A DNA stretch of 64,000 bases, from the NCBI GenBank assembly GCA_019054805.1, contig JAHQIY010000006.1, positions 1,798,001 through 1,862,000 of the forward strand. The letters are read 5' to 3'. Made by a program: the position numbers and the translations under genes. Source of the DNA: Brachionus manjavacas (Eukaryota > Rotifera > Eurotatoria > Ploima > Brachionidae). Below the pieces are notes generated by a model, which worked only from the letters and a program-made list of their open reading frames with translations, did no database searches and had not been told where the DNA came from. This document shows positions 14,352-62,972 of this stretch, one piece after another; the first letter of the stretch is position 1, and each line of letters begins with the position of its first letter.

Positions 14352-17300
14352 ATGAATTCTGGCTTTGGTTCATTCGGCTCACCTTGTAAGACTTCTAATT
14401 ATTCTAAAATCTGTCTAAATTCTCTTTTAGCTGGATTCAATACAGCATCATCATTGTTTCCTTCTTCACAAAATCGAACTGGAAGTCTATTTGGAGCCTC
14501 CACGACCAATCAGCCAACGAGCACAACCGGTAGTCTATTCGGTTCAAGCTCAACCACAACACCTTCAACCACTAGCTTCGGTTTTGGTTCTGCCACTGCC
14601 ACTACTCCAACCACTACTCAGACCGGTACCGGAAATGTTAAATTTTCTGCAGTTAGTGGCCAGGACACAGTCACCAAAAGCGGTGTTCAATCAACCATTC
14701 AAACAAATCATCAATGCATTACAGCCATGAAAGAGTACGAAGGTAAGTCACTGGAAGAACTTAGATTGGAAGATTATCAAGCAAACCGTAAATTTCCACA
14801 GACCACATCCGGTTTTGGAACTTCGACTGGAATTTTTGGATCTTCAACACAACCAGCTTCGAGTGGTTTTGGCTCAAGTAATATGTTTAGTTCTAGCTCG
14901 TCTTCCACGGCTGCTAAGCCTTTTGGTGGCTTCGGTTCCTCAACTACAACCACAACACCAAGCACTTCCACAAACATTTTTGGTTCTCAGACAAAACCTG
15001 CCTTTGGCTCTTTTGGAGCAACTCAACCTAGCACAACATCATCTCCTTTTGGCGGATTTAGCACCTCTACACAACCTTCAACGACCACTACTAGCTTTGG
15101 ACAAACCACTCAGCCCTCTACTGGATTATTCGGAACCAGCACAGCACCTAGTACTGGTACTAGTCTTTTTGGCTCAACAACTCCGTCAACTTCAACCACT
15201 GGAGGTCTATTCGGCTCCACTCAACAAAGCCAACAGCAAAAGCCTTTATTTGGTGGATTCGGCTCCACAGCATCAAACACAGCTAGCACAACCCCTGCTT
15301 TTTCTTTTGGAACTTCTACCACCCAGCCATCTCAGCCGACTTCATCGATCTTCGGCCAATCGACCACCCAATCGCCTCAAGCAACCAACAAGCCTTTTGG
15401 CGGCTTTGGCACTGGAACTGGAACTACAACAACAGGTTTTGGCTCATCTACTACAACCACTCCTTCTACTGGATTGTTTGGCTCAACTCAACAAAAGCCT
15501 GCTTTTGGCTTAGGCTCATCTACGGCCACTACTGGCACAAGTGGTTTTGGCACCAGTTTCGGTTCAACATCACAAACTGGAACAACTGGAAGTTTGTTCG
15601 GAAGTGGATTTGGCAATCAACCGTCAGCAACTGCAACAACTCCATTTGGCACTTCGGCAGCATCGACCACCCCTTTCGGTTCTTCTTCAACCACTGGCGG
15701 ATTGTTCGGAAACACTCAGCCAGCAGCAACTACAACTGGTACTGGCCTATTTGGTTCATCTACAACTCCGAGCACTACTACCACTGGTTTTGGCAGTAGT
15801 GGTTTCGGAACCGGCACTCAGCCTAGCAGCCAGCCGTCAATTTTCGGCACTTCAACAACACCATCAACTGGCGGCTTGTTCGGAACATCTACAACCAGCC
15901 AGCCGAGCACTTTTAGCCTCGGTTCTGGTCTAGGCTCGACTGGAGCACCCTCTACGGGTCTTTCTTTCGGCTCACAGCCATCAAGCACTTTTGGAACCGG
16001 TCTTGCGCAGCCGGCACAAGCTCCTCAACAAGCACAAACAACTGCGCCCACAGTTCAACCTTTGATTCAGCAGCAATTAATGGCCCTAAGCAATTCACCC
16101 TACGGAACTGCCAGTTTGCTCAAAACCCAACTGCAGGACTACTCGAAAAAAGAGGACATATTCAAGCCGGTCAGTCCCATAGCCCAAAAGCCGTACATCA
16201 CCGAGGCCACTTCGCCCACTAAAGTGCCATCTTTTCTATCCCAAACACTGCCCGAGTACAAAGGCGGCCTCTCAATGACTCTTAAGCTCACGCCAAAGCC
16301 CATAACTCAAACAAGCAAAAAATCCGATCTATTCGAAGGTCTAGATGAAGAAGAAACGCCAGTTTTTTATCCAAGAAAAAATATCAAAAAGCTAATGTTC
16401 AAGCCCCAAGTGGACCAATCGGCCCGACTCTCCACATCCAACAGCTCGATCAATGGCGACTCTCAGTTTATTCGCAAGCCGAATTTTTTCTCCGAACAAG
16501 CACAAATCACCAACGATTTGACCAATGTTTCCGATGACGGCACCCAGACCACAGACAACCAAAGCGAGAATGGACTGACGGCATCGGCGCACCCCGCCGG
16601 AATAGTTCTAGAGAGACCGGGCTATTTTACCATTCCGTCCATGGGCGAGTTGGGCGCCATGGTCGATCCAAAAACCGGCGATTGTTTGGTGGAAAATTTC
16701 GCTATCGGCCGAGTTGACTACGGCTGCATCACTTTTCCAGGCATCACCAACTTGGCCAACCTCAACTTGGACGACATTGTTCACATTCGCCGCAAGGAAG
16801 TTCATGTGTATCCGGACGACTCGAAGAAGCCTGCGGTCGGCGAAGGCCTCAACAAGCCAGCCGAGGTTACCTTGCACAGAATTTGGCCCTCTGACAAACA
16901 AACCCGGATGCCGATCACAGACCCAAATCGAATAATCAACATGGGATACAATAAGAAAATAGAAAAAGTCACCATTGACATGGACGCTGAGTTCATTGAC
17001 TATGACCCGGTCACAGGCTCGTGGACTTTTAAGGTAAAACACTTTTCCAAATACGGCCTGGACGATTCCGAGGACGAGGATGCGCAAGTTGGCCAAGCCA
17101 ATGGTGCCAAAGCCGCTCTATTGGACCCGGCTAAGAAAGAAAAAGAAATGATAGAGAGACAACTGAAGCTGATTGAGCTCAGGCGGTTCGAATTGATGCA
17201 GCAGTCCAAGCAAAAGTTGTCCACCATTACCAACCAACAATGGGACATAATTAAAGACTATGCGCCCAAAAATGACAAAAAATTGGTCGACACGTCCAGT

Positions 17301-20300
17301 TTGGAGCTTTCGACAGACGAGACCAGCGAAGCGGACATTGAAACTGTGGATTCAGATGGCAACAGAAAGTCCATATGCAAGCAATTGGTTTTGGATGCCG
17401 AGGAAACTGTTATTGATGAAAACAAAGAGAATAAATTGTACCCGAATTTGGTCGAGTTTGGAAAAAGAGAGAACAAAGTTAAAACATTGTATCCCAATTT
17501 GGATGGCTTGGAAACTAATGTCCAACCGGTTGAAATGGTTGAGGATAAAGAGGAGATAGTTGAGACCGAGCAGGTCATGGATGAGGTTGATTTTCAAATG
17601 GATAAGTTTAAGGATACAAGAAAATTGGCGGATGTGTTTTTTAGTGATGAACGTGAAGGTGATTTTTTTGCCGCGTCCTTTTCAGACGATTATCAGTTTA
17701 GTAAGTTTATTTTTTCAGCTTGAGAGCATGATTTTAATTCTATTAGGATTTTATATTGTTTTGCATTTTAAAAATTAAAAATTAATTAAGAATATTTCAT
17801 TTTTAAAAATAAATCTCTTTTAGTTAGAATTAAAATTACTTATTTCAAAACAAAAATAAAAGATAAAATAATTTATAGATTAATTTTTTAGGATTTACAT
17901 TTTTTTTGCATTTAAAAATAAAAAGAAAATTTTTTAAAATATTTAATTTTCTAAAAATAAATCTCTTTTAGTTAGAATCAAACATATTTTTTTACACAAA
18001 AATCAATAAAAAAAAATAAAGTTAATCACACGTATTAATCATCAATTAAAGGTATTATTTGTCATTCAAAAGATCAACTGACAATTTTTAATATTTCTTA
18101 GAATTAAAAATTATCAAAGGGAAATTTATCTTGACTAAAAAATGAACTCAAAAAAATTAGTTGTCAAAAAGGATACATAATCGGGATAAATATTAAGGCC
18201 TTTACTTTTTTATAAATAATTTAATTTCAACTGTATAAATTTACTTATATCTATAGAAAATAAATTTTAGCGTAAGAAACGATTTTATCAAGACTAAAAT
18301 ACATTTTATTTATAAAAGACTTTTTCAATGTAATAAAGCTTAATCAATGTAAAAATATTATTTAATGAAACTATTATCGGATTCACTTTCTAAATCAAGC
18401 TTTCAAGAATTTGAAAACAAAATTGCATAATTTTGGAAATAGGTTTTTATATGATCAGATATTTTTTTATCAAAAAAGTTGCATATGAATTAAAAATTAT
18501 TTTAAATTTTATAAAGGTAAATTTATTCTAGTACAAAAAAAACTAGTTATATTATAAAATAAAATAAAAGACCAAATAAATTCCAGATTAATGTTCCAGC
18601 GTTATAATTTTATTTAAATTATAAACTTAGACTTTTTAAACTAAAGTTACAAAATTTTTAAATTAAATTTTAATTAGATGAAATTTTAATTTCGAAAAAC
18701 TATGGTTCCAATAAATTATGTGTTCAGAATAAAAAAATTTTTGATCGAAAATGTCTTTAAAAATGATCATATGTTTTGTTAGGCATTTTTTTCATTAATG
18801 ATTTTGAAAGAACACACTTCAAGAAAAATTTTGATTTTCTGTTGCTTTTATATTTCAATCCAATCTCAATTTTTGTTTTAATATAATATTTAGATTAATG
18901 GAGTTAAGGGTAATGGGACTGAGGCGATTTGAAAAAGCATTACAAAATTTTCTCTTGAGGTGCTAGAACTTTGAATTCTGCAAAGTTAATTGCATTAGCG
19001 AAGACTAGACGTAAAATCTGTTAAAGTTTTGATTTTTTTATTTTGTAAATCTACTTGATTTTTCTTAAGTTTTGGAAAAAAAGAAAAGGCGGAACATTAC
19101 TATATTTTTTTTATTAAATTTAGGCAATTTTTTTCTTAATTACTTATCATTTTTTAATAAAAGTATTATGTTTTAAGAAAAAGTGTAAATAAGTTAATAA
19201 CATTTGATTTTTATATTATTTAGTGTTAATTAATTTTTTTAAGTATAATCTTAATAACTCAGGGATTAATTTAATTTTTTGGGTAAAATTAAAAAATTTG
19301 GGTTATTCTAATCGTTCAAGATTTTAATCGTTCTTTTTTAATGGTCCTGAAAAATTGACCCAAGATTCTCTTTTACAAAATTTATTAGTAATAAAAAATT
19401 CAAAATATGATATTTTTACGACATAAAAAAATATTTTAAAAAAATTTTGCTTAATAATTTTTAATTGTTAATTGCATTCAAATAAAATTATTTCAGAAAA
19501 TTTCACTTCTTTTATAAAAATAAAAACTTTCACAACATTTATTGACTGTTTGATTTTTAAAGAAAAATTGGGTAGCTTTTCTCACAAGCCAATTACTACA
19601 GGTGGTTTACTGAAACGTGGTCTTGGAGGAATATCTACTATTGACCAAGAAAACAGGATAAAAATCGGAGAAATTAGCAGTAGGCTGTCAACGTCACAAA
19701 TAGGTGATCAATTTCACGGTCAGCCCAAAGTGCTGAAAACCAATATTACCGAAGCTCATAAAAAAGTAGCTCCGAAAGTTCTTAAACCACAATTATGGAA
19801 CAGATTCAAAGCTCATAAGCCTGTTAAGTCCGCACAACGGTGTGTACCTCTGGACAAAAATGAAGAAAAAGTTCCTAGCTCCGAATCTCAATTAGTACCA
19901 TCTGAATCTACCAAAAGTTTAATTGAATTAAAAGATTCATTCACATATGATTTTCTCTGGTGTCTGACAGACCTGGGACTGTTCAATTCAAGACGCTTCA
20001 AGGCCAACTGGTCAATGAATCCTTCTTGTTACACTTTCACACAACTTTCGTCAGTGACCAAAAATTGCACCTTTAGAAATCTTTGCCAAATAAAATCATT
20101 AAACACTCTGAGCATGACAGACCAAATACCCTCGTCAAAACTGGACAAAATAAAAGAGAACATGGAAAAATGCTTGACCATTCAACTTGGTTTGACCGAT
20201 TTTGTCGATCGATCCAATTTAAGTTTGTTAAAAACCAAAAATGGCAATGAGTTAATCAAAAATTTGGATGAATGTGCTGAATATTTGCGACATTCCATAG

Positions 20301-23300
20301 GTAGGCGTTCAATAAGAAATTGTTGTTTTAATGACTAAGTTGAAAAGTTAAGTAGGTGATAATCCGGATGCTGACAATGTTGAAAATTTTCGAATAGTTC
20401 TCAACTTGTGCTCTAAACTCTGGGGCGACATACCTGATGAGCTAAAATCGGAGAATTCAAATTCAAACATGAACCAATATGAGACTGAGCAAATTAGAAA
20501 GAGACTGTTGTCTGAATGGCTTACACATGTGAGCTCTCATCGCATTGAGAAAGAATGCAAATCTCTGAAATTTAATAAAGTAATTTAGGTGAATTTTTTG
20601 GCTCAACTTGATGAACATTAATGCTTTAAGAACAAAGAGAACTATCTAAATGCCATTTTTAGCTATTTGAGTGGCAATCGATTACTTGACGCTTGTAATA
20701 TTGCTGTGGAAAATTCGGATTACCGATTGGCTTTACTTATATCACAGTCTTCAGGTTCCAACGATACCGTGAGAACAATCATGAAAAAACAGCTTAAAGA
20801 ATGGTTTCAAAGCAATGTAAGTCTTATTATTTTTTTGATAATCGATTATTATTAATTAACCTCTTCAATTGAAAAAATTATCATTTTAAAAAAACCTTAT
20901 TTAACTCAAGAAACTGTAAGGTTTTGAAAAAATTTAAAAATCAATGCTATTTCTGTATTAAAATTTATTAAATACATTTAAATTAACACATTTAGATCCG
21001 AGCTAATATGTTGCATCTGTGAATTATTTTATTACTATTAAAATAATTATTGCTATTATAATTTGAGCTTCATTAGCAGTTAAAAAAATTTTATCAAAAA
21101 TTAAAAATAAAAAAAATTAAAATTAAAAAGAGGCGTTTTCTTAAAGTAAAAATAATGGATGCCAAAAATGGAAGTCAGATATTTCAATTAAAAAATCATG
21201 ACCAATATGCTGACTTTGTCCTCAATACTATTTAGACGCATCACTTTATATAAAGATAATTTTTTCTTGATTAAAACGAGCTACTGATTATTTTTTTCAC
21301 AAAATTTTTACAAAAGTTATTTCGAAAAAACCTCAAACAAAATTTACGATTTTTGTAAAAAAATTGAAAGCTATAAACTAGTTTTTTGGTTAAATATATC
21401 AGAATATTTTTTTTGAATTGGACACAAAATATTGTGTCTTGTAGCCGTGTTAAAATGCTTTTGGTTTGTCTCTATCTTTAATTTATTTTCAAAAAGTCCA
21501 AATGTCCTTATTTAAACTTTTTAAAATTTTAAACAAAAATTGAGGTTGACACTAAAAGCAACACAAAATTAATACACTGAGAAAATAACTTTTTTTGGTT
21601 TGAATAAATAGACTTTAAAGAGTTTAGATTCAATCTTTCAAGAAATATAAATTACATGAATAACATGAATTAATTTTTTTTCTTAAAAAGATAGTTAAAA
21701 AAATTAATGTATATACGAAATTTAAATGTTTTTTATTTGATTGTTCTCAATATAATCTAAAACACAATATTTGTAATATGTACAAAGAAAGTTTAACTTC
21801 ACTAAGGTTCCTCATTCTATGTTTATCTGAGATATAATAATCCATGGTCAGAAATGGTTGCCTGAAATCTTAAAATGATAAAATTATGAAGATTTTTAAA
21901 TTTTTTGTGAAATTATGTGTAGTTTTAAAAATAACAAGCCATTTTTAAGAAATTAATTTTTTTGGCATGTTCTATACTCATGAATGACTGCTAGTTCGAT
22001 ACGTCTTTATGTAGAGAATCTTGTCCTGATTAAAATGAGCTATTTTTTTGCTTCATGGAAGATTTTTTTTGAAAGGGCATCAATTTTTTTCACAATTTTG
22101 AAAAAACATCTTTTAATAATTTTTCTTTTTTGATGAAAAAATTCCAGAAACTTTTATTATTTTTTTTTTATTCTAAAAATTTGTGTAATAAAGTAAAAAA
22201 AATTAAAAAGAAAATTAAAATATTTCTTTTTGAAAACAAATTGGAAAGATCGCACTTTATTCATGCTTTTTTAAAATTGAATTAAAATCTTTAAAATAAA
22301 AGTATATTTATAAAAGACGAACAAATACACCAAATTAACGACCAAATAGATAATAATGGAATAATTTGCATATTTTGCTTTACTTTTATTTGATACTTTT
22401 GATAATTTACTTTATTGGCGTAAAAATTAGATGAAATTCAAAATTGGTTCTTAAATAGGCTGTGTTTAAAATTATATGAATAAATTTTTTTTTTAATTTT
22501 AGTCGACTAAAAGATATTTTTAAAGATTATGCTATCAGTCATCCACAGCATTTATTTTTTTTTATTTTCAAAGCTTAATTTTAGCACAAAATTGAAAAGT
22601 TTAATAAAAAATTAAATTAATTAAAAAAATTTTTTTAAAAAATTATTTTATTTTAGAGTGATAAATTCATAAATAACGAAAGGCTAAAAATCTATCTTCT
22701 AATAAGCGGCGAACTTGTCTATAACATTTCTGACTTAAAAAATCAACTGATTAATGTTTGCGAAAACATCGATTGGAAGCGTCAATTCGGCATTCATTTG
22801 TGGTACCAAAGTTTACCAATAAATAGCATAACAGATGCTCTCAATCTATACGAAAACAGCGTAAAAAATGACATATGCTCTAGGCCAGTGCCCTCGTATA
22901 TCGAAGAAAGGGTATCTGATGGCCAAAATTCGCCAGAACTATACGATACATGCTTCCATTTAATCAAGTTGTACTGCAATAGCGAGTACCCGATCGAAAA
23001 CATTGTTCTTCCGCAAAATCATGGATCTAATCAACTTGACTACCGTCTCACATGGCACTTGACCATGGCCTTACAAGCCCTTCAGTATAACCACATAACC
23101 AAATTTTCCATGGAAACTTTGCACAATAGCTTTGCCTCTCAGCTGCAATCAACTGGACTTTGGCACTGGGCAGTCTATGTCTTGATGCACATCGATGACG
23201 ACCAAAGGCGCGAAAAATTTGTTCGTCTTTATCTGTCCAGAAATGTTTCTAGCCAGAGCGAACTGAATGATAGCGAAAAATTTTTAGTTGACAAACTTAA

Positions 23301-23952
23301 GCTTCCCAGCGAATGGGTCTATGAATACAAAGCTCTCAGAGCCAAATATGAGCACTTGGATGAAAACCAGCTTGAGTTGCTGCTAAAGGCACACAAATGG
23401 AATGAGGCTCATCATGTTTTAATTGAACAAATTGCACCTGATCTTTTTATAACCAAGAAATTTAAAAAATTAAGTGTCTATCTAAATTTATTGAATAAAG
23501 AAAGCACTTGTATAAATAGATGGAATTACGGTGGTCTTGTTTATCTGGACTTTATTAGACTGCATGAAAAACAGGACATTTTGTTCAAATTTGAGGCCGA
23601 TGAAGAAGAAAAATTTATTGATGATGATGTGATCAGTGAAATTAATGAACAATTGATGAGCTTGTCAACTAGATTGAAAGAGTTCGATACCAAATCGTCT
23701 AGAAAACTACTCTGCAGCCTTACCATGTCCCAATTGTTACTTAAATATTTCAATGTGTTAAACGAAATGATGAGTGTTAATGACCAAGAAATGGAGGATA
23801 TTGCCAGAAAAATGACCAAACAAAATATTGAAAAAGCTGACCAGCAAACATTGTTGGTGCCAGATCAGGAGCTTTTAAAGACTGTAATGCTCAAAAAAGT
23901 AATCTATTCGAAAATGTTTTTTGCCCACAAAACAACTCGATCTCGTAAATAA
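14352..23952 (+). CDS. NUP98: Nup98-Nup96 nucleoporin polyprotein
   Basis: Precursor of two nuclear pore proteins. Six exons fit all phases: 14352-14385, 14431-17700, 19497-20300, 20356-20579, 20631-20816 and 22657-23952, giving 1937 residues. Residues 1-575 are FG/GLFG repeats, interrupted near 80-135 by a GLEBS motif (TNHQCITAMKEYEGKSLEEL) that in Nup98 binds Rae1/Gle2. The autoproteolytic domain starts near residue 735 (GYFTIPSMGELG) and ends in HFSKYGLDD; cleavage after Phe883 would release a Nup98 of about 883 and a Nup96 of about 1054 residues. Nup96 landmarks are CSKLWGDIPD, AIFSYLSGNRLLDAC with DYRLALLISQS, and CENIDWKRQFGIHLWYQSLP, typical of the ACE1 helical scaffold that joins the Y complex. 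Introns are 45, 1796, 55, 51 and 1840 bp. The exon 3 start (19497) is the least certain boundary. Confidence 0.95.
17701..19496 (+). other. Intron 2 of Nup98-Nup96
   Basis: A 1.8-kb AT-rich intron starting GTAAGTTTAT and ending TTATTTCAG. I see no gene or recognisable repeat in it. The acceptor at 19491-19496 keeps the phase-1 frame; a later acceptor would shorten the linker between the Nup96 N-terminus and its conserved part. Confidence 0.6.
20817..22656 (+). other. Intron 5 of Nup98-Nup96
   Basis: A 1.8-kb intron starting GTAAGTCTTA and ending TTATTTTAG. It contains the 376-bp block 21376-21751, which is nearly identical to the 5' region of the EXTL3 gene (24557-24937). The rest is AT-rich with no coding frame. 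Confidence 0.75.
21376..21751 (+). repeat. Duplicated EXTL3 5' block (intronic copy)
   Basis: Nearly identical, with a few substitutions and short indels, to 24557-24937. It includes the dyad GACACAA-AATA-TTGTGTC (21421-21438) and the first codons of EXTL3 (ATGTATATACGAAATTTAAA) in the same orientation, after which the frame closes at a stop within a few codons. No terminal inverted repeats or target duplications are evident, so it looks like a segmental duplication rather than a transposon. Confidence 0.85.
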
Positions 23953-24556: not shown

Positions 24557-24937
24557 AACTAGTTGTTTGGTTAAATATATCAGAATATTTTTTTTAGAAT
24601 TGGACACAAAATATTGTGTCTTGTAGCCGTGTTAAAATGCTTTTGGTTTGTCTCTATCTTTAATTTATTTTCAAAAAGTCCAAATGTCCTTATTTAAACT
24701 TTTTAAAATTTTAAACAAAAATTGAGGTTGACACTAAAAGCAACACAAAATTAATACACTGAGAAAATGACTTTTTTTGGTTTGAATAAATAGACTTAAA
24801 TAAAGAGTTTTGATTCAATCTTTCAAGAAATATAAATTACATGAATAACATGAATTAATTTTTTTTTCTTAAAAAGATATTTAAAAAAATTAATGTATAT
24901 ACGAAATTTAAATGTTTTTTATTTGATTGTTCTCAAT
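24557..24937 (+). promoter_or_regulatory. EXTL3 5' region, duplicated block
   Basis: Covers about 335 bp upstream of the EXTL3 start plus its first 15 codons, and is present almost identically at 21376-21751. It contains a dyad (GACACAA, 4-base spacer, TTGTGTC) at 24603-24620, about 275 bases upstream of the ATG, that could be a factor-binding site. The promoter role is inferred from position. Confidence 0.5.
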
Positions 24938-36690: not shown

Positions 36691-39600
36691 CTAATTATGT
36701 GCTCTGATATATAAAAATCCACTAAATAAAGGCTTTTTCACTTGGGTCTCTTGAGTTGAAGTACCGGATTGATCTCGAGTAATGGAAGTTGTTTTGCCAA
36801 AAAGACGATTGCTACTGCTGGTCGACGTAATCCTTCCTAATAATTCAGTGGAGGTGTCAAATCCATTAAAGGGAGGTGAAATTGTGCTAGGTTCATTTGA
36901 GCAAAATGAAAAACCTGAATTTTTCTGAGATCCATTAATAGTCTTGAAAGACATCGGCGTTGCAGTTGTTTTTGAAAAGTCGGAAGGAAATTTTGTGGTT
37001 GATTGACAAAAGAGTGATGAAGTTGACTGAGATGGCTGTGAGCTGAAAGAAAGACCCGTAGAGGGTGCTCCAGTCGAGCCTGGACCAGAACCGAGGCTAA
37101 AAGTGCTCGGCTGGCTGGTTGTAGATGTTCCGAACAAGCCGCCAGTTGATGGTGTTGTTGAAGTGCCGAAAATTGACGGCTGACTGCTAGGCTGAGCCCA
37201 GGTTCCGAAACCACTACTGCCAAAACCAGTGGTAGTAGTGCTCGGAGTTGTAGATGAACCAAATAGGCCAGTACCAGTTGTAGTTGCTGCTGGCTGAGTG
37301 TTTCCGAACAATCCGCCAGTGGTTGAAGAAGAACCGAAAGGGGTGGTCGATGCTGCCGAAGTGCCAAATGGAATTGTTGCAGTTGCTGACGGTTGATTGC
37401 CAAATCTACTTCTGAACAAACTTCCAGATGTTCCAGTTTGTGATGTTGTTGAACCGAAACTGGTGCCAAAACCACTTGTGCCAGTAGTGGCCGTAGATGA
37501 GCCTAAACCTTGTTGAGTTGAGCCAAACAATCCAGTAGAAGGAGTGGTTGTAGTAGATGAGCCAAAACCTGTTGTTGTAGCTCCAGTTCCAGTGCCAAAG
37601 CCGCCAAAAGGCTTGTTGGTTGCTTGAGGCGATTGGGTGGTCGATTGGCCGAAGATCGATGAAGTCGGCTGAGATGGCTGGGTGGTAGAAGTTCCAAAAG
37701 AAAAAGCAGGGGTTGTGCTAGCTGTGTTTGATGCTGTGGACCCGAATCCAGTGCCAAAGCCGCCAAAAGGCTTGTTGGTTGTCAGAGGCGATTGTGAGGT
37801 CGATTTGCCGAATATTGATTCTAAGCCAGATTCACCAAATAAAGGCTTTTGCTGTTTGCTTTGTTGAATGTTTGAACCAAATAACCCTCGAGCGGTTGAG
37901 GTGCGCGGAGTAGCTGGGCCAAAAAGACGACTGCTTCTGAATGATTCAGTGGAAGGTTGAGTATTTTTTCTAAAATCAGGAGATGGTTGTAAAGAGGCTC
38001 CATATACAACAAAAGGTTGAATTATTCCAGAAGAGCCAAAGGCAGGTTTTGTCTGAGAACCAAAAATGTTTGTGGAAGTGCTTGGTGTTGTGGTTGTAGT
38101 TGAGGAACCGAAGCCACCAAAAGGCTTAGCAGCCGTGGAAGACGAGCTAGAACTAAACATATTACTTGAGCCAAAACCACTCGAAGCTGGTTGTGTTGAA
38201 GATCCAAAAATTCCAGTGGAAGTTCCAAAACCGGATGTGGTCTGTGGAAATTTACGGTTTGCTTGATAATCTTCCAATCTAAGTTCTTCCAGTGACTTTC
38301 CTTCATACCTTTTCATGGCTGTAATGCATTGATGATTTGTTTGAATGGTTGATTGAACACCGCTTTTGGTGACTGTTTCCTGGCCACTAACTGCAGAAAA
38401 TGTAACATTTCCGCTACCGATCTGAATATTGGTTGGAGTAGTGGCAGTGGCAGAACCAAAACCGAAGCTAGTGGTTGAAGGTGTTGTGGTTGAGCTTGAA
38501 CCGAATAGACTACCGGTTGTGCTCGTTGGCTGATTGGTCGTGGCTCCAAATAGACCTCCAGTTCGATTTTGTGAAGAAGGAAACAATGATGATGCTGTAT
38601 TGAATCCAGCTAAAAGAGAATTTAGACAGATTTTAGAATAATTAGAAGTCTAGATTATTAACACAAATGTTTTTTGCAGTCAATTATTTTGAAAAAAAAT
38701 CAAAAAAGATTTGAAATAATTTTTAAGTTTATTTTTAGAAAACGTTGAAATCAGCTTCCTAACATTTAAGAAATGATTTGAAAACTTCTTGTTAAAGTAA
38801 TACATTTCATTTATTCGTCTTATTCGAATAATTCAATAAACAATAGAAAACGTTTACCTAGGCTTTATATATTTGTGTTTGTAATTTGTTTAGTTTAGTG
38901 TTAAAAAAAAGTTGATTTTCAAGATTTTAAACAAAGCTTTCAAAACAATCTTGACAATAATTTTCAAAATTATGATTAACCAAAAATGTCCAAAGATGGT
39001 TCTAATTTTAGTTTGGAAAATTTAATAAAAAGGAAGCATAACTGCCGAATGGTCCTCTAGAGCAAAATTTTATCGTTTTTTCCTTTTCGTGTTCTAAAAT
39101 TTGCATGGAATTTCACAATGTATCACCTGAAAAACAATTCAAGTCTTTTATCAATAAATATTTCTTCAGAAATTGTTAGGTGGGTTGCTCAAGTCTTGAA
39201 ATTTAACAACTAACTCAAAGAAATCAAACAGAATCAAAATAAATAAAAATTCGAATAAAATATGACTCAAATTTTTAAAATATTATTTCTTAATTTCCTT
39301 ATAATGCATTCATTTCATATCTTTTTGAAAATTTTAAATATTAATATGGGTATCAATTTTCCAGGAGTAAATAGACTTTAATCGGATTTATTTTTAAGAT
39401 TTAACTAAATTGCAGCCGAATGTGACATCTCAAAGAATCAATAAACCAATCTGCTTTAAAAAAGTATTTAAGATTTCAAACTGTAAAAGACTTCACTTAG
39501 CCAAATATTCAAATCAAAGTTAATAATAAAATGATAAGCGAAAATAATCTTTTTCTATTTTTGCTAAAACTATTAACAATGAAATAAGTCAGAAAAAAAA

Positions 39601-40030
39601 TTTAGAATATTAAGGTCTCCTTATTGACAGTGGCAGTAAACAAAATTTATTAGTTTATTAATAAATAATTTATTATTTAAAGTCTATCTTAAAAATTTAG
39701 TTCTGATAATTAATAAAAAATATTTTTTGGCAACAAATTAAACTCTTAATTTAATTTTTTGTATTCTATTATGAAGAATATTTAATAACATTTTTAAATG
39801 AGCAAATTGCGGAAATAATTAGATTAAAATTATTACTTACTAGTTTGGTTGAAAGCCATATAATCATTGCTAGATATTAAGTACTTAGAAGAAAGTTTTT
39901 CACAGGTCTTAATCAAACTCTCATGTTTAATTATTAAATCGAACTTTGAGTCAACTTCTCTCTTTATTTCGTCGAAGAGATTATCAAGTTTTTCAAGAAA
40001 ATCGATCTTGATAGTCTCGGTTTCTATCAT
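36691..40030 (-). CDS. Chimeric Nup98-like FG-repeat gene with a new coiled-coil first exon
   Basis: Two exons on the minus strand: 40030-39841 and 38609-36691. Exon 1 encodes 63 residues predicted to be helical (IDFLEKLDNLFDEIKREVD, then KFDLIIKHESLIKTCEKL) and ends at a consensus donor (A|GTAAGT). Exon 2 starts at the same acceptor and phase as exon 2 of Nup98 (CTCTTTTAG then CTGGATTC), so splicing preserves the frame and gives 702 residues. Exon 2 is a duplicate of the Nup98 FG region including the GLEBS motif (TNHQCITAMKRYEG), without the autoproteolytic domain or Nup96. Without exon 1 the FG frame has no ATG until about residue 90 of the repeat region. The frame is open throughout and an AATAAA follows the stop by 10 bases. 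The exon 1 family is unknown. If unspliced, it would instead be a large pseudogene fragment with an intact frame. Confidence 0.6.
37031..38651 (-). repeat. Segmental duplication of the Nup98 5' region
   Basis: Inverted copy of about 14389-15970. It begins in the middle of Nup98 intron 1: AGACTTCTAAT is shared and the bases before it differ. It therefore carries the intron's 3' part and acceptor and must have arisen at the DNA level, not from mRNA. Identity is very high from 38651 to about 38030 and again from about 37745 to 37031, but low in between, and the gene's last 340 bases are diverged FG repeats. Confidence 0.9.
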
Positions 40031-56808: not shown

Positions 56809-56999
56809 TGTAACGGGGGAGGATTTGCCCGTTAGGAGAATATATAAAATAAAAGAAAAGAAGAGAAGAGACGTTGGATTTAAGAAACCTTTATTCAAAT
56901 AAAAGAACTTGTTTCAACTAAAGAAAAACTTATCTTTTATGGTACGTTCCTGACTATTTGGGGAGTTTGTTTTGTTCTCCTAGCAAACTCTCCATTGCA
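56809..56999 (-). repeat. Gypsy 3' LTR
   Basis: 191 bp, TG...CA ends. In the element's sense it carries TTTGAATAAAGG, a possible polyadenylation signal. It encodes the last 15 residues and stop of the downstream ORF. No strong polypurine tract precedes it; GCAAAAGGCGCCGG is the nearest purine-rich run. Confidence 0.95.
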
Positions 57000-57538
57000 C
57001 AGTTCCGGCGCCTTTTGCGAATCACTCCGTGACTAACGTTCTCGCTTTGCTCACTAGTCGTAACATCCGTTACCACGATCATCTCCCTATCGGTGGCCCC
57101 CAGCGCCTGCGACCCGGTTTGGCACTCGATCGCTTGCCCGGCCTCTCTGATTGGATTTAGGTCCAGGCCATAATAAATATGACGGCTCCAGACTGGGACA
57201 GAGTCCCTGACGTTGTGCGACCGCATATGCACCCATAGTGTCGGGTAGTCCACGTACACCCGGGCCGCCTTCCGTTCCAAATTCAACTTGACCTCCAACT
57301 TGTAGTCTCGGCCTCCAACGCTGTACACCGGGTACTCAGAGATGAAATCGTGACAGCGGATCGAGTCACGGTCGTCGTAGAATTTAATAAACACCACGGT
57401 CTCGGGCCTGACTGTCTCCTCCATCACTCTAAAATATTGGATCGGGCCGATTTGCCTGTATAGAAACTGGGCGCACTTAACGTTCTCCTCAACGTCGAAC
57501 TTCGGAAACATGCGGAGCATCGTTTGGTGTTCGGCCAT
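56954..57538 (-). CDS. Gypsy accessory ORF downstream of integrase
   Basis: An intact 194-codon frame between integrase and the 3' LTR, ending inside the LTR. Its codons are clearly more GC-rich than the rest of the element. Residues 12-90 have an alternating strand/helix pattern with ETVVFIKFYDDRDSIRCHDF, reminiscent of an RNP1-like strand and helix of an RRM fold. There is a basic RKRRR patch near 175. No signal peptide, membrane segment or furin-like site is seen, so it does not look like an envelope protein. The RRM suggestion is a guess from pattern; the function is unknown. Confidence 0.65.
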   Translation of the reverse strand: MAEHQTMLRMFPKFDVEENVKCAQFLYRQIGPIQYFRVMEETVRPETVVFIKFYDDRDSIRCHDFISEYPVYSVGGRDYKLEVKLNLERKAARVYVDYPTLWVHMRSHNVRDSVPVWSRHIYYGLDLNPIREAGQAIECQTGSQALGATDREMIVVTDVTTSEQSENVSHGVIRKRRRNCAMESLLGEQNKLPK

Positions 57539-57966
57539 AGCGAAATTGGTTTGGAATGAGTGCGTTTAGTAAAAATTTTTTTTGAATCTGAATTTGAATA
57601 AATGAGAGAGTAATTCGCCAAAAGTTTTGCATAAATCCCCGAAACAATTGTGCATATTTAGATATCTATTTTGAGTGTGTTTACGCAACTTGTCTTATTT
57701 ACATTTTACATAAATTTGAATTTTAGCAATTGTGCAAGGAACTAAAAAGCTAGAATTTATCTTATTTGGAGTGTGTATAGTTTAAACGTTGTGGGGGTCT
57801 CCTATCCCTCTTAACCCTGATAGATTCATGGGCTCTTCTTTGTACTTCCTTAACAAACGTTTCGTTGCAGCATTAGGGACGAACGTTTCGTCGTCGCTTG
57901 AACCACCACTTTCCGTAGTTGTCATGGGATTCTGTCCTTCTTGTAACGTTACCTTAGCTCTCTCGA
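57539..57966 (-). other. Gypsy non-coding spacer between integrase and accessory ORF
   Basis: About 430 bp without a supported frame in the element's sense. It may contain a promoter or splice acceptor for the accessory ORF; none is specifically recognisable. Confidence 0.4.
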
Positions 57967-58767
57967 CTATTTTTTTGCTGCCAGGGTTTTCAGATTCACC
58001 CTCTTACTTTTCTCGTTGTTTGATTGCGTTGCCAGGCTATTTTCAGTCTCAATTTCGTGTTTTCCAAAATGCCTCTTTAACCTGTTCCTGTGAACAATGA
58101 GTCGCTTCCTTTTAGAATTCAAGGATCTCATCTTGTAATTTACGTTGTTGAACACACTTTCTACAACGGAGGGGCCTGTCCAACTGAAAGTGAATTTTTT
58201 ACACTGCCCCTTTTTAACAACGTCGTTATGGACCCAAACGAGATCCCCAACTTTGAGCTTGGCTGCTGTCACGTTACGATCGTAGTTTAGTTTCATTCGA
58301 CGAATTTTTACGTCTCTATTCGCCCTAACTCTTTCGTATGCCGATTTTAATTTTGATTTCAATTTGTCGGCATACTCGCCCGGTGAAACCGGAACGTTTA
58401 TGATCGGGTCTTTGTAAATGAGGTCTAAAGGCATTTTAGCATCGCGGCCGTACATTAGTTCGAACGGTGTCGACCCCGTCGTTGAATGAACTGCAGTATT
58501 GTACGCTAAGCTTAAGACGTCCAGATGTTCGTCCCAGTCGTCGTGGTCCTCATTAATGTAACAGGTGATCATGCGTTTAATAGTTCTATTAAGGCGTTCA
58601 CTAATGCCGTCGGTTTGAGGGTGGAAGGGTGTAGTCCTCAATCTCTTCACATCCATAAGATTCCATATCTCTTCGATCAGTGCGGATTGGTAATTTGTTC
58701 CTTGATCGGTTAAAACTGCTTCTGGTATTCCGTGCTGGCAGATAAACTTTAAGAAGCACTTGGCCAC
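57967..58767 (-). pseudogene. Gypsy integrase, catalytic core end and C-terminal domain
   Basis: Open for 266 codons. It includes AVLTDQGTNYQS (second catalytic Asp), PFHPQTDGISERLNRTIKRM (catalytic Glu) and the GPY/F-type C-terminal module (KVGDLVWVHND, FSWTGPSVV, RLKRHFGKHE). It is separated from the upstream integrase part by a frameshift near 58770. Confidence 0.9.
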
Positions 58768-59593
58768 GCTTTTTGCTTCTGCGTTTTCGAGGGCAAAGTT
58801 CGATCCACTTCGTGAAGTGATCTATAATGCAGAGGATGTATTTCTTATTGTTTTTGGATATTTTCAAAGGGCCTAGGATGTCTGACGTTATGATTTCTAA
58901 GGGTTTGTTCGTTATTATCGGTATTATCTTGTCTTTGATTTTGCGACCTTTAGATGTTTTTTGGCATATTGTGCAATCTCTTATGAACGTCTTAATGTCC
59001 TCGTAGTATTTGGGCCAGAAGAATTTTTTTCTTATTCTATTAAACGTTTTCTCTGTTTTTAGGTGTCCGCTTAATTTTGATGCGTGTTCTTGTTGCATGA
59101 TTAATCCACGTTCGCTTGCGGGTACTACTAGTTGTGCGATTTTGCTGTCTTTTTTGACTCTGTATAGTATATCCCCATCCAATTTGCATTCGTTCCATGA
59201 ATTGATATAGAACTTTTTCTCTGGGTTTTCGAAGTTTTCGATAATTGGTCTCTCAGCGTTGTTTTTGAGGAGGTTTTTGAACCATGTAATATTTGGGTCG
59301 CTTGCCTGGTAATTTTGGTCATCGGTATCCTTAAAAAGGATTGCGTTTATTGTTTCAACGTCGTTTTCGAATAGGTGGTTAATCAGGAGGTCACCGAATT
59401 CTTCTTAAATTTCATTGTTTTCTTCTTTCAGTGGCCACCGCGAGAGGCTGTCAGCGTTTTGATGTTTTGTACCTTTGCGGTACATGATTTTAAAGTTGTA
59501 GTCCTCGAGGCGTATAATCCAGCGTGCAAGACGTGGCGCTGGATTCTTGACGGTCCTAAGCCATTGAAGCGGTTGGTGGTCTGTGACTACACC
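58768..59593 (-). pseudogene. Gypsy RNase H end and integrase N-terminal part
   Basis: Immediately after the RT frame's TAA stop the same frame continues VVTDHQPLQWLRTVKNPAPR and GTKHQNADSLSRWP, the end of RNase H. A second in-frame TAA follows near 59406. The integrase zinc finger (H...H near SGHLKTEKTF, C-x2-C in RDCTICQK) and first catalytic Asp (ITSDILGPL) lie in 59182-58770. Stops and frame changes in this part disable a continuous pol. Confidence 0.85.
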
Positions 59594-60970
59594 TTATTCT
59601 TTACCGTAAAGGTATTCTCTGAAGTGTTCGATCGCGTTAACGATTGCTAATAGTTCTTTTTCGGACGTTGCGTAATTTCTTTCTGGCTTGTGTAGGCTTC
59701 TTGAGTAGTAAGCCACTGGTTTCCATAGGCGTTCTTTACCATGTTGTTGGGATAATACTGCGCCAATGCCGTAATTGCTAGCATCTGTTTCGAGTTTAAA
59801 CGTTTTTTCGAAATCAGGTATTGAAAGGACTCGGTCTGACGTTAAGTGGCTGCGTAGGGTCTGAAATGCTATTTCGCACTCTGGTGTCCATTTAAACTCC
59901 GAATCTTTCTCGTTAAATTTATGAAGAGGGGCTGCTATCTTTGAGAAATTTTGTATGAATATTCTGTAATACGACGCTAGACCGACGAAGCTTGATACTT
60001 GGTCGACATTATTGGGCCTATTGTATCTAAGGAGTGCTTCGATCTTTTTTGGTGAAGGGGCGATTGTACCATTTGAAATGACGTGTCCGAGGTATTCGAT
60101 TGACATTTCGAAAAATGAGCACTTCGTAGATTTTATTTTCAGGCAGTTCTTCCTGATTACGTCAAGTACTTCTTGGATATGTTTGTAGTGGTCTTCGACT
60201 GATTCTGAGAATATAATGATGTCGTCGAGGTAGACCATGCAGGACTTTCCGAAGAGGTCTTTGAAAATTTCGTTCATGAAACTTTGGAAAGTTGCTCCTG
60301 AGTTGGTTAAGCCCATTGGAAGTACTTTGAACTCGAAATGTCCAAATTCGCAACTGAATGCGGTGTATTTTTGGGAATTTGGGTCCATTTTGATTTGAAA
60401 GTAGCCCGAGGCAAAGTCGATTTTTGAAAATATTCTGGCATTTTTTAGGCTGTTTAGCATGACGTCGATGCGAGGAAGTGGGTAGCTGTCCTTGACGGTG
60501 AGACTGTTTAGTTTTCTGTAGTCTATTGTGAGTCTCATGCTTCCGTCGCATTTTTTGACTAGGTGGACCGGTGATGAATACGGTGCGTTGCTGTCTATTA
60601 TCAGGCCTCCTTCCTTAAGTTCGTAAACTAACCGTGTGAACTCTTCGCGTTTCGCGTATGGTACGGGTCTTGGTTTGATGTTGAAGGGTGTCCTGTCTGT
60701 GAGTTCAATCTTGTGTTTCATTAAGTTTGTAGGGGTGAGGTCCTTTAGCCTGTTAGCTGTGACGTCTATGATTACCTCCGCGATTTTGTTTTTATATTCG
60801 TTGGTCAGACGTTGCTCGATTTGTGTTCTTGAATCTTCCAGAAAATTGACCGAGTAGTCGTTGTCCATTTCCTCTTCGTTGTATTGCAGTTCGTCAAATC
60901 TCTCGCTAAGTTTGTCCATTAAGTCTTTGGTGACGTTGAATTTTCGCAATATTCTAAACCCATTGAACAA
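59594..60970 (-). pseudogene. Gypsy reverse transcriptase and RNase H start
   Basis: 458 open codons. RT motifs in order: GGLIIDSNAPYSSPVHLVKK, SMRLTIDYRKLN, FSKIDFASGYFQI, FKVLPMGLTNSGATFQ, and the catalytic YLDDIIIFS, then IEYLGHVIS. The RNase H catalytic Asp is in LETDASNYGIGAVLSQ, and YYSRSLHKPERNY follows. It ends at an in-frame TAA where the family continues. Confidence 0.95.
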
Positions 60971-61215
60971 TCGCTGATTAAATTTTTAATGACTATAACT
61001 TCTGAATGTAGAGTTTGGTTTCCTAACGTTAATTTGATTTTTGATTTACCTATTGTTTGTGTTGGTGAGCCGTTGGCAGTTAGTAAAAGTTTATTAGATG
61101 GTCTAACGTAAAGTCTGAGTTTTGAGGCTAAGTTTTGGTTGATAATTGTGTATTTTGTTCCGGTGTCTATTAAAAATTTTACGTTAGATCCATTTATTTT
61201 GCATGTGCTAGTGAG
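60971..61215 (-). pseudogene. Gypsy aspartic protease region
   Basis: Open in the gag frame after a UGA codon (61216-61218). FLIDTGTKYTII holds the protease active-site Asp-Thr-Gly. A frameshift near 60955-60975 separates it from the RT frame. Confidence 0.8.
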
Positions 61216-62333
61216 TCAGAATTTTCGATGCGGTTGTTGAACCGCATTTACCGGCGAGATAGAAGTCTCTCTCGGCTGGTTGTTTGTCGTGTATCTGCTG
61301 CGTGGGCAATCTGAACGTTTGTGGCCTACCTTTCCGCAGTTAAAGCATCTAATTTGTTGTTCGAAAGTAACTTTGTTGTGGTGGTTTGTTTGCCAGTTTT
61401 CTTCAACGTTTAAGCCGAGTGCCTCTTCGTATCTGCATGCTAATTCGATTATTTCATTTAGGCTTGTAAACTTTGGTCTGGAAACTTTAAGCTTCACATG
61501 TATTTCTGGGGTCGCTAGGCCTTCGATGAACTGGTCTGCGATGTATGTTTCGAGGACGTTTCTGCTAACCTCCGGGAATGCTTTAGTTGCCAACATGCGT
61601 AGTTGTGTTGCAAAGAGGAAAACGTTTTCGTTATTGAGCTGTCTTCTGTCTAGGAATGCTTTTTTGACATTGGCCTTGTCTCTTCGTTCGTATAGTTGTA
61701 GGAGGATTGCTTAAGTTGTTCGTAAGCCCATGTTTGATCGTCGCTGAATGTGTGAAATTCGACGTTCCTTCTACAAATCGGGTTCAGTTTCAGAAGCATG
61801 ATGTCTTTCTTGTTCTCTGTGATGTTGTTGATCCTGAAAAACGTTTCGAAATTTCGGATCCATTCGTTAATAACGTCCGTTTCAGGACTGAATTCTCTTG
61901 GTTCTGGTGCTAGGTAGCGGGTAGTTCTGTTGGGGTTCTGCGTCGTGTTTTGGGCAACAATGTTAGTGGGTGGTGTTTGGTTTTGTGTTGGTCTATCAGT
62001 GGGGTTGTTGGTGTTTGGTTGTTGTTGTGGTTGGTTTAGGTTTGGGCACGTGTTGTTCACAACAGAGACGTTTTGTGATGTAACATTCCCAGAATTAGCA
62101 AGTCTTATTTGTCTTTTGTAGTGAAGTACAGTTGTCCACATGATGATTAATGAGACGGTTGCAACAGCACCAAACGTGGTGATGAACACGTGTTCGTTCA
62201 TTAGACACCAGCATCTCCTCAAACACGGTATGATTGTGTGGATAGTGTCCCTGATTGAATTCATCACGTTTCTGGATATGATGTAGTTGTTGTCGTGGGT
62301 GTAGACTGTGTGGGGTTTGAACCAGTTCTGCAT
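61216..62333 (-). pseudogene. Gypsy gag
   Basis: The start at 62333 gives a first part (to 61650) with an N-terminal hydrophobic segment (VFITTFGAVATVSLIIMW, residues about 49-66), a Pro/Asn/Thr-rich linker and the capsid start (EWIRNFETFFRINNITENKK). A one-base frameshift near 61715 leads into the second part, with the capsid end (TYIADQFIEGLATPEIHVKL) and one CCHC knuckle (CFNCGKVGHKRSDCP). It ends at a UGA that is in frame with the protease. Confidence 0.85.
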
Positions 62334-62781
62334 TCCTGACTGTAGGATTAAATAGGATTTCTCAAAAATTATATTAACGTTAGAATTTGGTGTGACTTTA
62401 TTGAAATGCTAGCGTGGAGAAGCTCTTTAAATGAACAAAAATTTCCGTCCTTCAACGTCTTGTATGTATAATGGAATAAAGAAATGCATATATAACTAAC
62501 TCAATGAATATATAAATAAACACGTTTACCTTCCCCAGCAAACGGGAACCGGGTCAGCCCTTGACCTGTTCCAAATAATAAAAATACGTGAATTCACTCT
62601 CTTAAAAACTAATATCCCAAAACCTAAACCTTGACCGAATCCTAAACCAGATTCCGGTCGTTCGCAATCGTTTCGAGAGAGATTTACTCCGTCGACACAA
62701 TGCCCATGGTACCATTTGCCTCGCAAAACACCTAAGCTCGCGCCAGCTTAAGAAAGCCTTGCACTCACGTGTGGGCACCAG
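62334..62781 (-). other. Gypsy 5' leader and primer-binding site
   Basis: About 450 bp of non-coding leader. Directly next to the 5' LTR (one base away) the element's sense reads TGGTGCCCACACGTGAG (about 62764-62780), starting with TGG as needed to pair with a tRNA 3' CCA end. The tRNA identity is not assigned. Confidence 0.65.
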
Positions 62782-62972
62782 TGTAACGGGGGAGGATTTG
62801 CCCGTTAGGAGAATATATAAAATAAAAGAAAAGAAGAGAAGAGACGTTGGATTTAAGAAACCTTTATTCAAATAAAAGAACTCGTTTCAACTAAAGAAAA
62901 ACTTATCTTTTATAGTACGTTCCTGACTATTTGGGGAGTTTGTTTTGTTCTCCTAGCAAACTCTCCATTGCA
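62782..62972 (-). repeat. Gypsy 5' LTR
   Basis: 191 bp, TG...CA; two substitutions relative to the 3' LTR (positions 62883 and 62914 by my count), which suggests a young insertion. Confidence 0.95.

Follow-up and report, generated by a model that had tools for sequence, protein, structure and literature searches.

An inverted partial copy of Nup98 lies about 21 kb from the resident gene, within the window analysed here (the whole stretch of DNA, 64,000 nucleotides). It raises the question of whether such a copy is a gene at all and, if so, whether it arose in one step or in several. We suggest that it is an older Nup98-derived locus that has recently been refilled from Nup98, and we lean modestly towards the view that it is translated into an unanchored, weakly constrained FG/GLEBS protein.

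Nup98 and its inverted copy

The source gene and a neighbouring ORF are laid out as follows:

14352..17700 (end about 17700), plus strand: Nup98, the source gene, with GLEBS at 14661-14777 and the autopeptidase domain (PF04096) at about 16617-17060
14386-14430, plus strand: Nup98 intron 1, 45 bases, after which a long exon runs to about 17700
22657..23952, plus strand: ORF of the Nup96 part, on the same strand as Nup98

We take the Nup96 ORF and Nup98 to be one Nup98-Nup96 gene; the joined protein exists in Brachionus plicatilis (P0121, 1917 aa). Because residues 560-1126 of the local Nup98 match that protein at 88%, with 99% of the stretch covered, we take the animal to be close to B. plicatilis. 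The Nup96 ORF is flanked by a 212-base direct repeat (21407-21618 and 24589-24800, 99% identical, 3182 bases apart), and the Nup98 copy by two M14 carboxypeptidase genes (36320-35565 and 49233-47907, both minus). Elsewhere in the window, 56809-62972 resembles an LTR retrotransposon, with reverse transcriptase and integrase ORFs between 191-base direct repeats that are 99% identical.

The proposed gene structure of the copy has three parts:

39841..40030, minus strand: candidate exon 1, 63 codons from ATG, ending at the donor A|GTAAGT in phase 1
38610..39840, minus strand: putative intron, 1231 bases, the last 42 being a copy of Nup98 intron 1 that includes the acceptor
36691..38609, minus strand: exon 2, 639 codons counting the split first codon, open to TAG

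The preliminary description had pointed to this arrangement, and its elements are borne out by the letters themselves. Similarity to Nup98 begins at 38651, which aligns with 14389, base 4 of intron 1, and the acceptor CTCTTTTAG is included; exon 1 at 40030-39841 has its 63 codons and its phase-1 A|GTAAGT donor; and the join 39841^38609 is in frame, leaving a fused frame open for 702 residues. An AATAAA does lie 10 bases past the stop, at 36680-36675, but it is weak evidence because the DNA is about 77% A+T. A processed retrocopy, from which introns are removed, can be rejected: 42 bases of intron 1 are kept, and the copying was thus DNA-based. When the genome (114 Mb, 61 contigs) was searched with the whole of exon 2, the matches were exon 2 itself, Nup98 and one distant GLEBS locus only.

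Exon 2 is a mosaic relative to Nup98, with its blocks, all on the minus strand, arranged as follows:

38014..38651, minus strand: block A, a fresh Nup98 tract, from Nup98 14389 to about 15029, 97% identical and carrying GLEBS
38266..38376, minus strand: GLEBS (Rae1-binding) motif of the copy, PF21240 at 72.6 bits (cut-off 27)
37751..38013, minus strand: block B, part of the old layer; its homology to Nup98 covers 15024-15264, then 15344-15416
37031..37750, minus strand: block C, a fresh Nup98 tract, from Nup98 15254-15982, 98% identical (gaps aside) and out of register
36691..37030, minus strand: block D, part of the old layer; its homology to Nup98 covers 15324-15377, then 14940-15259, and one FG motif remains in the block

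Nucleotide differences from Nup98 number 17/597 in A, 14/717 in C and 45/177 in B. Block D differs from its true counterpart (Nup98 14930-15380) at 93 of 292 bases, with 199/292 identical; all figures for D come from this alignment, an earlier one to the wrong part of Nup98 (206/306) having been discarded. By NG86, dS and dN are 0.020 and 0.030 in A, 0.018 and 0.019 in C, 0.616 and 0.238 in B (62 codons aligned to Nup98 15024-15264), and 0.745 and 0.363 in D (85 codons). The copy very probably holds two age layers, because dS is 0.019 for A and C together and 0.616 and 0.745 for B and D. The borders between near-identical and diverged stretches are sharp, as in a gene-converted paralogue. We read divergence as age here, though the apparent age of B and D could partly be faster change instead.

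Evidence for and against a product

If the locus is a gene, exon 1 would be the old gene's own first exon, spliced to exon 2. The close rival to a translated gene is a product-less fragment of Nup98 origin: an old partial duplicate in neutral decay that has been patched by recent recopying, in which exon 1 is a chance ORF. Arguing against this rival, structures like exon 1 with a perfect in-phase donor are rare. Twenty 10-kb stretches of this genome, both strands included (400 kb), contain two phase-1 ATG exons with GTAAGT that reach 50 codons (0.0075 per 1.5 kb) and none that reaches 60; under the looser donor GT[AG]AG[TA] the counts, which include real exons, are 13 (0.049 per 1.5 kb) and 10 (0.0375). 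An exon 1 in the right phase exceeds what chance would give.

The codon usage of exon 1 likewise leans towards coding sequence, with a score of 5.5 against means of -12.4 for non-coding null windows and 14.1 for coding windows; 3.8% of the null windows reach this score, and 13.9% of 332 coding windows are as low. G+C is 30% in exon 1 versus 23% in the non-coding set. On the side of the fragment without a product, three of the 20 non-coding-set ORFs that reach 50 residues out-score exon 1, and exon 1 found no relative: it was its own single match in the 114 Mb genome at E 0.001, matched no Pfam family, and matched none of 24 word-sharing candidate proteins (about 386-1228 residues only) at E 10 or better. 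Taken from its sequence features, exon 1 is a probable real exon. It had also been credited with heptad-like hydrophobics, and its product with possible oligomerisation. That pattern does not surpass what shuffled residues give (P 0.66), which leaves the oligomerising product unsupported.

Two repeats lie near or within these features. The first, at 40903-40730 upstream of exon 1, is a dispersed element with at least 57 other matches, often closely spaced in opposite orientations and foldback-like. The second, at 38910-38798 within the putative intron, is a short dispersed repeat with at least nine other matches.

The 639 codons of exon 2 run through two layers without a stop or frameshift, which also counts against a copy without a product, but the force of this observation is limited. 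In neutral simulations, the joint probability of a stop-free B and D is 0.008-0.02 when all divergence is placed on the copy and 0.07-0.12 when half is; run singly at full parental lengths, block B gives 0.035-0.21 and block D 0.018-0.047. Under neutral decay an intact frame across these two blocks is therefore only weakly unexpected, a result that the product-less copy can accommodate. Where B and D are homologous to Nup98, the gaps in the DNA alignments have lengths divisible by three, but FG repeats favour in-phase indels. Pairwise omega in the two blocks is 0.4-0.5, for which constraint on the Nup98 branch alone can suffice. The rarity of exon 1, the frame that stays open through B and D, and the gaps in multiples of three are our reasons for reading the locus as a gene. 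Because the stop-free B and D are mildly unexpected and omega is explicable by Nup98 alone, we favor a translated gene by a modest degree of belief, and regard decay without a product as the less probable reading, yet a serious one.

As to constraint in the fresh tracts, the 957 nonsynonymous sites of A and C together hold 22.5 differences and the 351 synonymous sites 6.5, a dN/dS of about 1, as a copy without a product would show. Neutrality is not rejected (Fisher P 0.67), and the same test leaves positive selection in these tracts unsupported. Nup98 FG domains are described across eukaryotes as avoiding charged residues, Tyr, His, Cys, Trp, Val and Ile, and as being about 500-700 residues long with about 8 FG per 100 (PMC9918544). 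Outside GLEBS, 8 of the 17 changes in A and C introduce such FG-avoided residues (6/14 without the three that touch the A/B border), where simple neutral models expect a fraction of 0.41-0.47; this too is what decay without a product would give. Between the local Nup98 and that of B. plicatilis, by comparison, FG-avoided residues appear in 2 of 58 changes (Fisher P 5e-5 against the 8/17 on the copy). The old layer has FG-avoided residues at 19/88 positions in B and 27/113 in D versus 1/81 and 3/107 in their Nup98 counterparts; the fresh tracts have 9/141 in A minus GLEBS (Nup98 5/140) and 7/241 in C (Nup98 4/243). FG motifs per 100 residues stand at 5.6 in A (GLEBS included), 6.8 in B, 7.5 in C and 0.9 in D. 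The copy does not have the depletion of FG-avoided residues typical of Nup98. Change in the fresh tracts matches neutral expectation, without sign of Nup98-type FG constraint, and by its sequence the copy appears to be drifting from the chemistry needed by the pore barrier.

The GLEBS of the copy retains an intact core, LEELRLEDY, but is radically changed at one position, where R replaces E (human E194 in the numbering taken from the alignment). Among the 216 of 232 fetched proteins that have the core motif, this position is E in 204, Q in five, D in three, A in two, V in one, H in one and R in none, which again suits a copy without a product. The autoproteolytic domain PF04096, present in Nup98, has no match in the copy. 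Of 7977 scored candidates, 207 proteins matched the 702-residue product at E 0.001, with no Brachionus name among the 120 listed, under a length rule that left out the 1917-residue Nup98-Nup96 of B. plicatilis.

Assembly of the copy

Comparison with B. plicatilis gives the two layers a direction. In A and C the Nup98 proteins of the two species differ at 55 aligned residues, of which the copy shares 51 with the local Nup98, none with B. plicatilis and four with neither. Residues unique to the copy number 16, or 15 when the split first codon, to which exon 1 contributes the initial base, is set aside, and none is unique to Nup98 (two-sided binomial 6e-5 for 15 versus 0; 3e-5 for 16). As the copy follows the local Nup98 at 51 of 55 residues and B. 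plicatilis at none, we place the copying of A and C after the split from B. plicatilis, with the polarised changes since then assigned to the copy. In block B, 20 residues are unique to the copy, one is shared with Nup98, one is unique to Nup98 and three are all different. Block B also retains a codon that is present in B. plicatilis and lost from this species' Nup98; for this reason the old layer would predate the codon loss, unless the codon was gained anew.

Both B and D derive from Nup98 at about 14940-15264. Of 138 bases compared, the two blocks share 9 that differ from Nup98, where coincidence would account for 2.8-4.2 (Poisson P 0.002-0.03). Without a DNA-level outgroup most of these agreements could be changes in Nup98; polarisation covers three residues, read by eye (G to E, S to R, G to R), at which B. 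plicatilis sides with Nup98. B and D are likely an internal duplication in the old lineage. No third FG locus as a source for them was found in the genome, by a search that also missed D's own homology to Nup98 and would overlook any source equally distant.

Block C is joined at its left end from the equivalent of 15416 to 15254, and at its right end from 15982 to the equivalent of about 15330, both junctions being located at GFG and QPS repeats. Since C is out of register, its recopying was no plain in-register conversion.

These observations bear on the alternative first proposed for the locus, in which one recent duplication, broken in Nup98 intron 1, captured an upstream exon and made a chimeric gene at once. 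The intron breakpoint, the phase match and the open fusion frame fit this. A single event, however, would not leave 25% and 32% divergence from Nup98 in B and D next to 2-3% in A and C, nor a codon in B that this Nup98 has lost, nor a block C inserted out of register, and we consider it improbable. What stands of the preliminary description is a chimeric FG/GLEBS gene without an anchor, a fair reading of the DNA in which the phase match of exon 1 beats chance; its making by intron-breakpoint exon shuffling in one event gives way before two divergence classes and the retained codon. The suggested role as a competitor of Nup98 is a conjecture, and Nup98-type FG constraint has left no sign in the fresh tracts. 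An assembly artefact or uncollapsed haplotype, suggested by the 97-99% identity of A and C to Nup98, is very improbable, as a mosaic of diverged and near-identical stretches, with flanks that occur once in the genome bar short dispersed repeats, is unlike a false duplication.

We instead propose an older locus, derived from the FG region of Nup98 and lying inverted about 21 kb from it, whose FG part was recently overwritten in places by recopied Nup98 sequence, namely tracts A and C. FG and QPS repeats may have been the sites of gene conversion or of template switching, and the intron breakpoint would then be the end of the latest recopied tract. The product would be unanchored and partly FG-cohesive, binding transport receptors and perhaps Rae1, under constraint much weaker than that on Nup98. 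Ordinary forces (duplication, conversion and relaxed constraint) suffice to explain the locus; the layered refilling is the unusual part. A further idea, which we think doubtful, is that drift erodes the FG character of the gene and recurrent ectopic recopying from Nup98 restores it, such that barrier-like properties cycle. If true, this cycle would offer a natural test of how fast an FG domain decays without selection.

Comparison with known nucleoporin variants

The copy is like Nup98 in having FG repeats and GLEBS, and A and C are nearly identical to the resident gene; it differs in its first exon and in the missing PF04096 match. It has 36 FG motifs in 639 residues and Nup98 has 40 in 544, with 50 and 20 charged residues, respectively. 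In engineered FG repeats, one added negative charge per repeat is reported to abolish phase separation (PMC9918544). The product, if translated, would be a soluble protein with 36 FG motifs, and given the effect of added charge these should be less cohesive than those of Nup98.

NUP98 fusion oncoproteins arise at breakpoints in introns and include GLEBS. In published accounts of them, the FG part of NUP98 is joined to unrelated sequence (PMC8384169, PMC13186446). The foreign part of the copy would by contrast be N-terminal, germline and without a Pfam match. Tetrahymena has Nup98 paralogues, at least two Nup98-type proteins within a single organism, and these are nucleus-specific pore components, whereas the copy has no anchor. 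Compositionally distinct pores are described for that ciliate (PMC5450191). A further comparison is with soluble Pom121 (sPom121) of hominoids, a nucleoporin variant made by genomic rearrangement and found away from the pore, for which expression and promoter association are reported (PMC4888837). It derives from Pom121 and not Nup98, and the copy is by comparison a candidate gene. A literature search on Nup98 and rotifers led to a paper on the origin recognition complex, and among the papers listed by broader searches none dealt with this gene by title or abstract start.

If translated, the copy would be a natural FG/GLEBS protein without a pore anchor and thereby the germline parallel of NUP98 fusions and sPom121. 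Should it have no product, its fresh tracts would still be a local measure of what becomes of Nup98 FG sequence when selection is lifted, with FG-avoided residues arriving at about the neutral rate (8/17) rather than rarely, as between species (2/58).

A separate observation concerns GLEBS elsewhere in the genome. At about 7266960-7268344 of contig G000:C1 (L018 3461-4845, minus strand), a 160-residue ORF has two GLEBS (PF21240, 64.5 bits) and runs into a GTAAGT donor, with a RING finger ORF about 650 bases further. A literature search on GLEBS, RING finger and Rae1 together found no such protein by title or abstract start. Were the two ORFs spliced together, they would possibly encode a double-GLEBS RING protein, a candidate Rae1-directed ubiquitin ligase.
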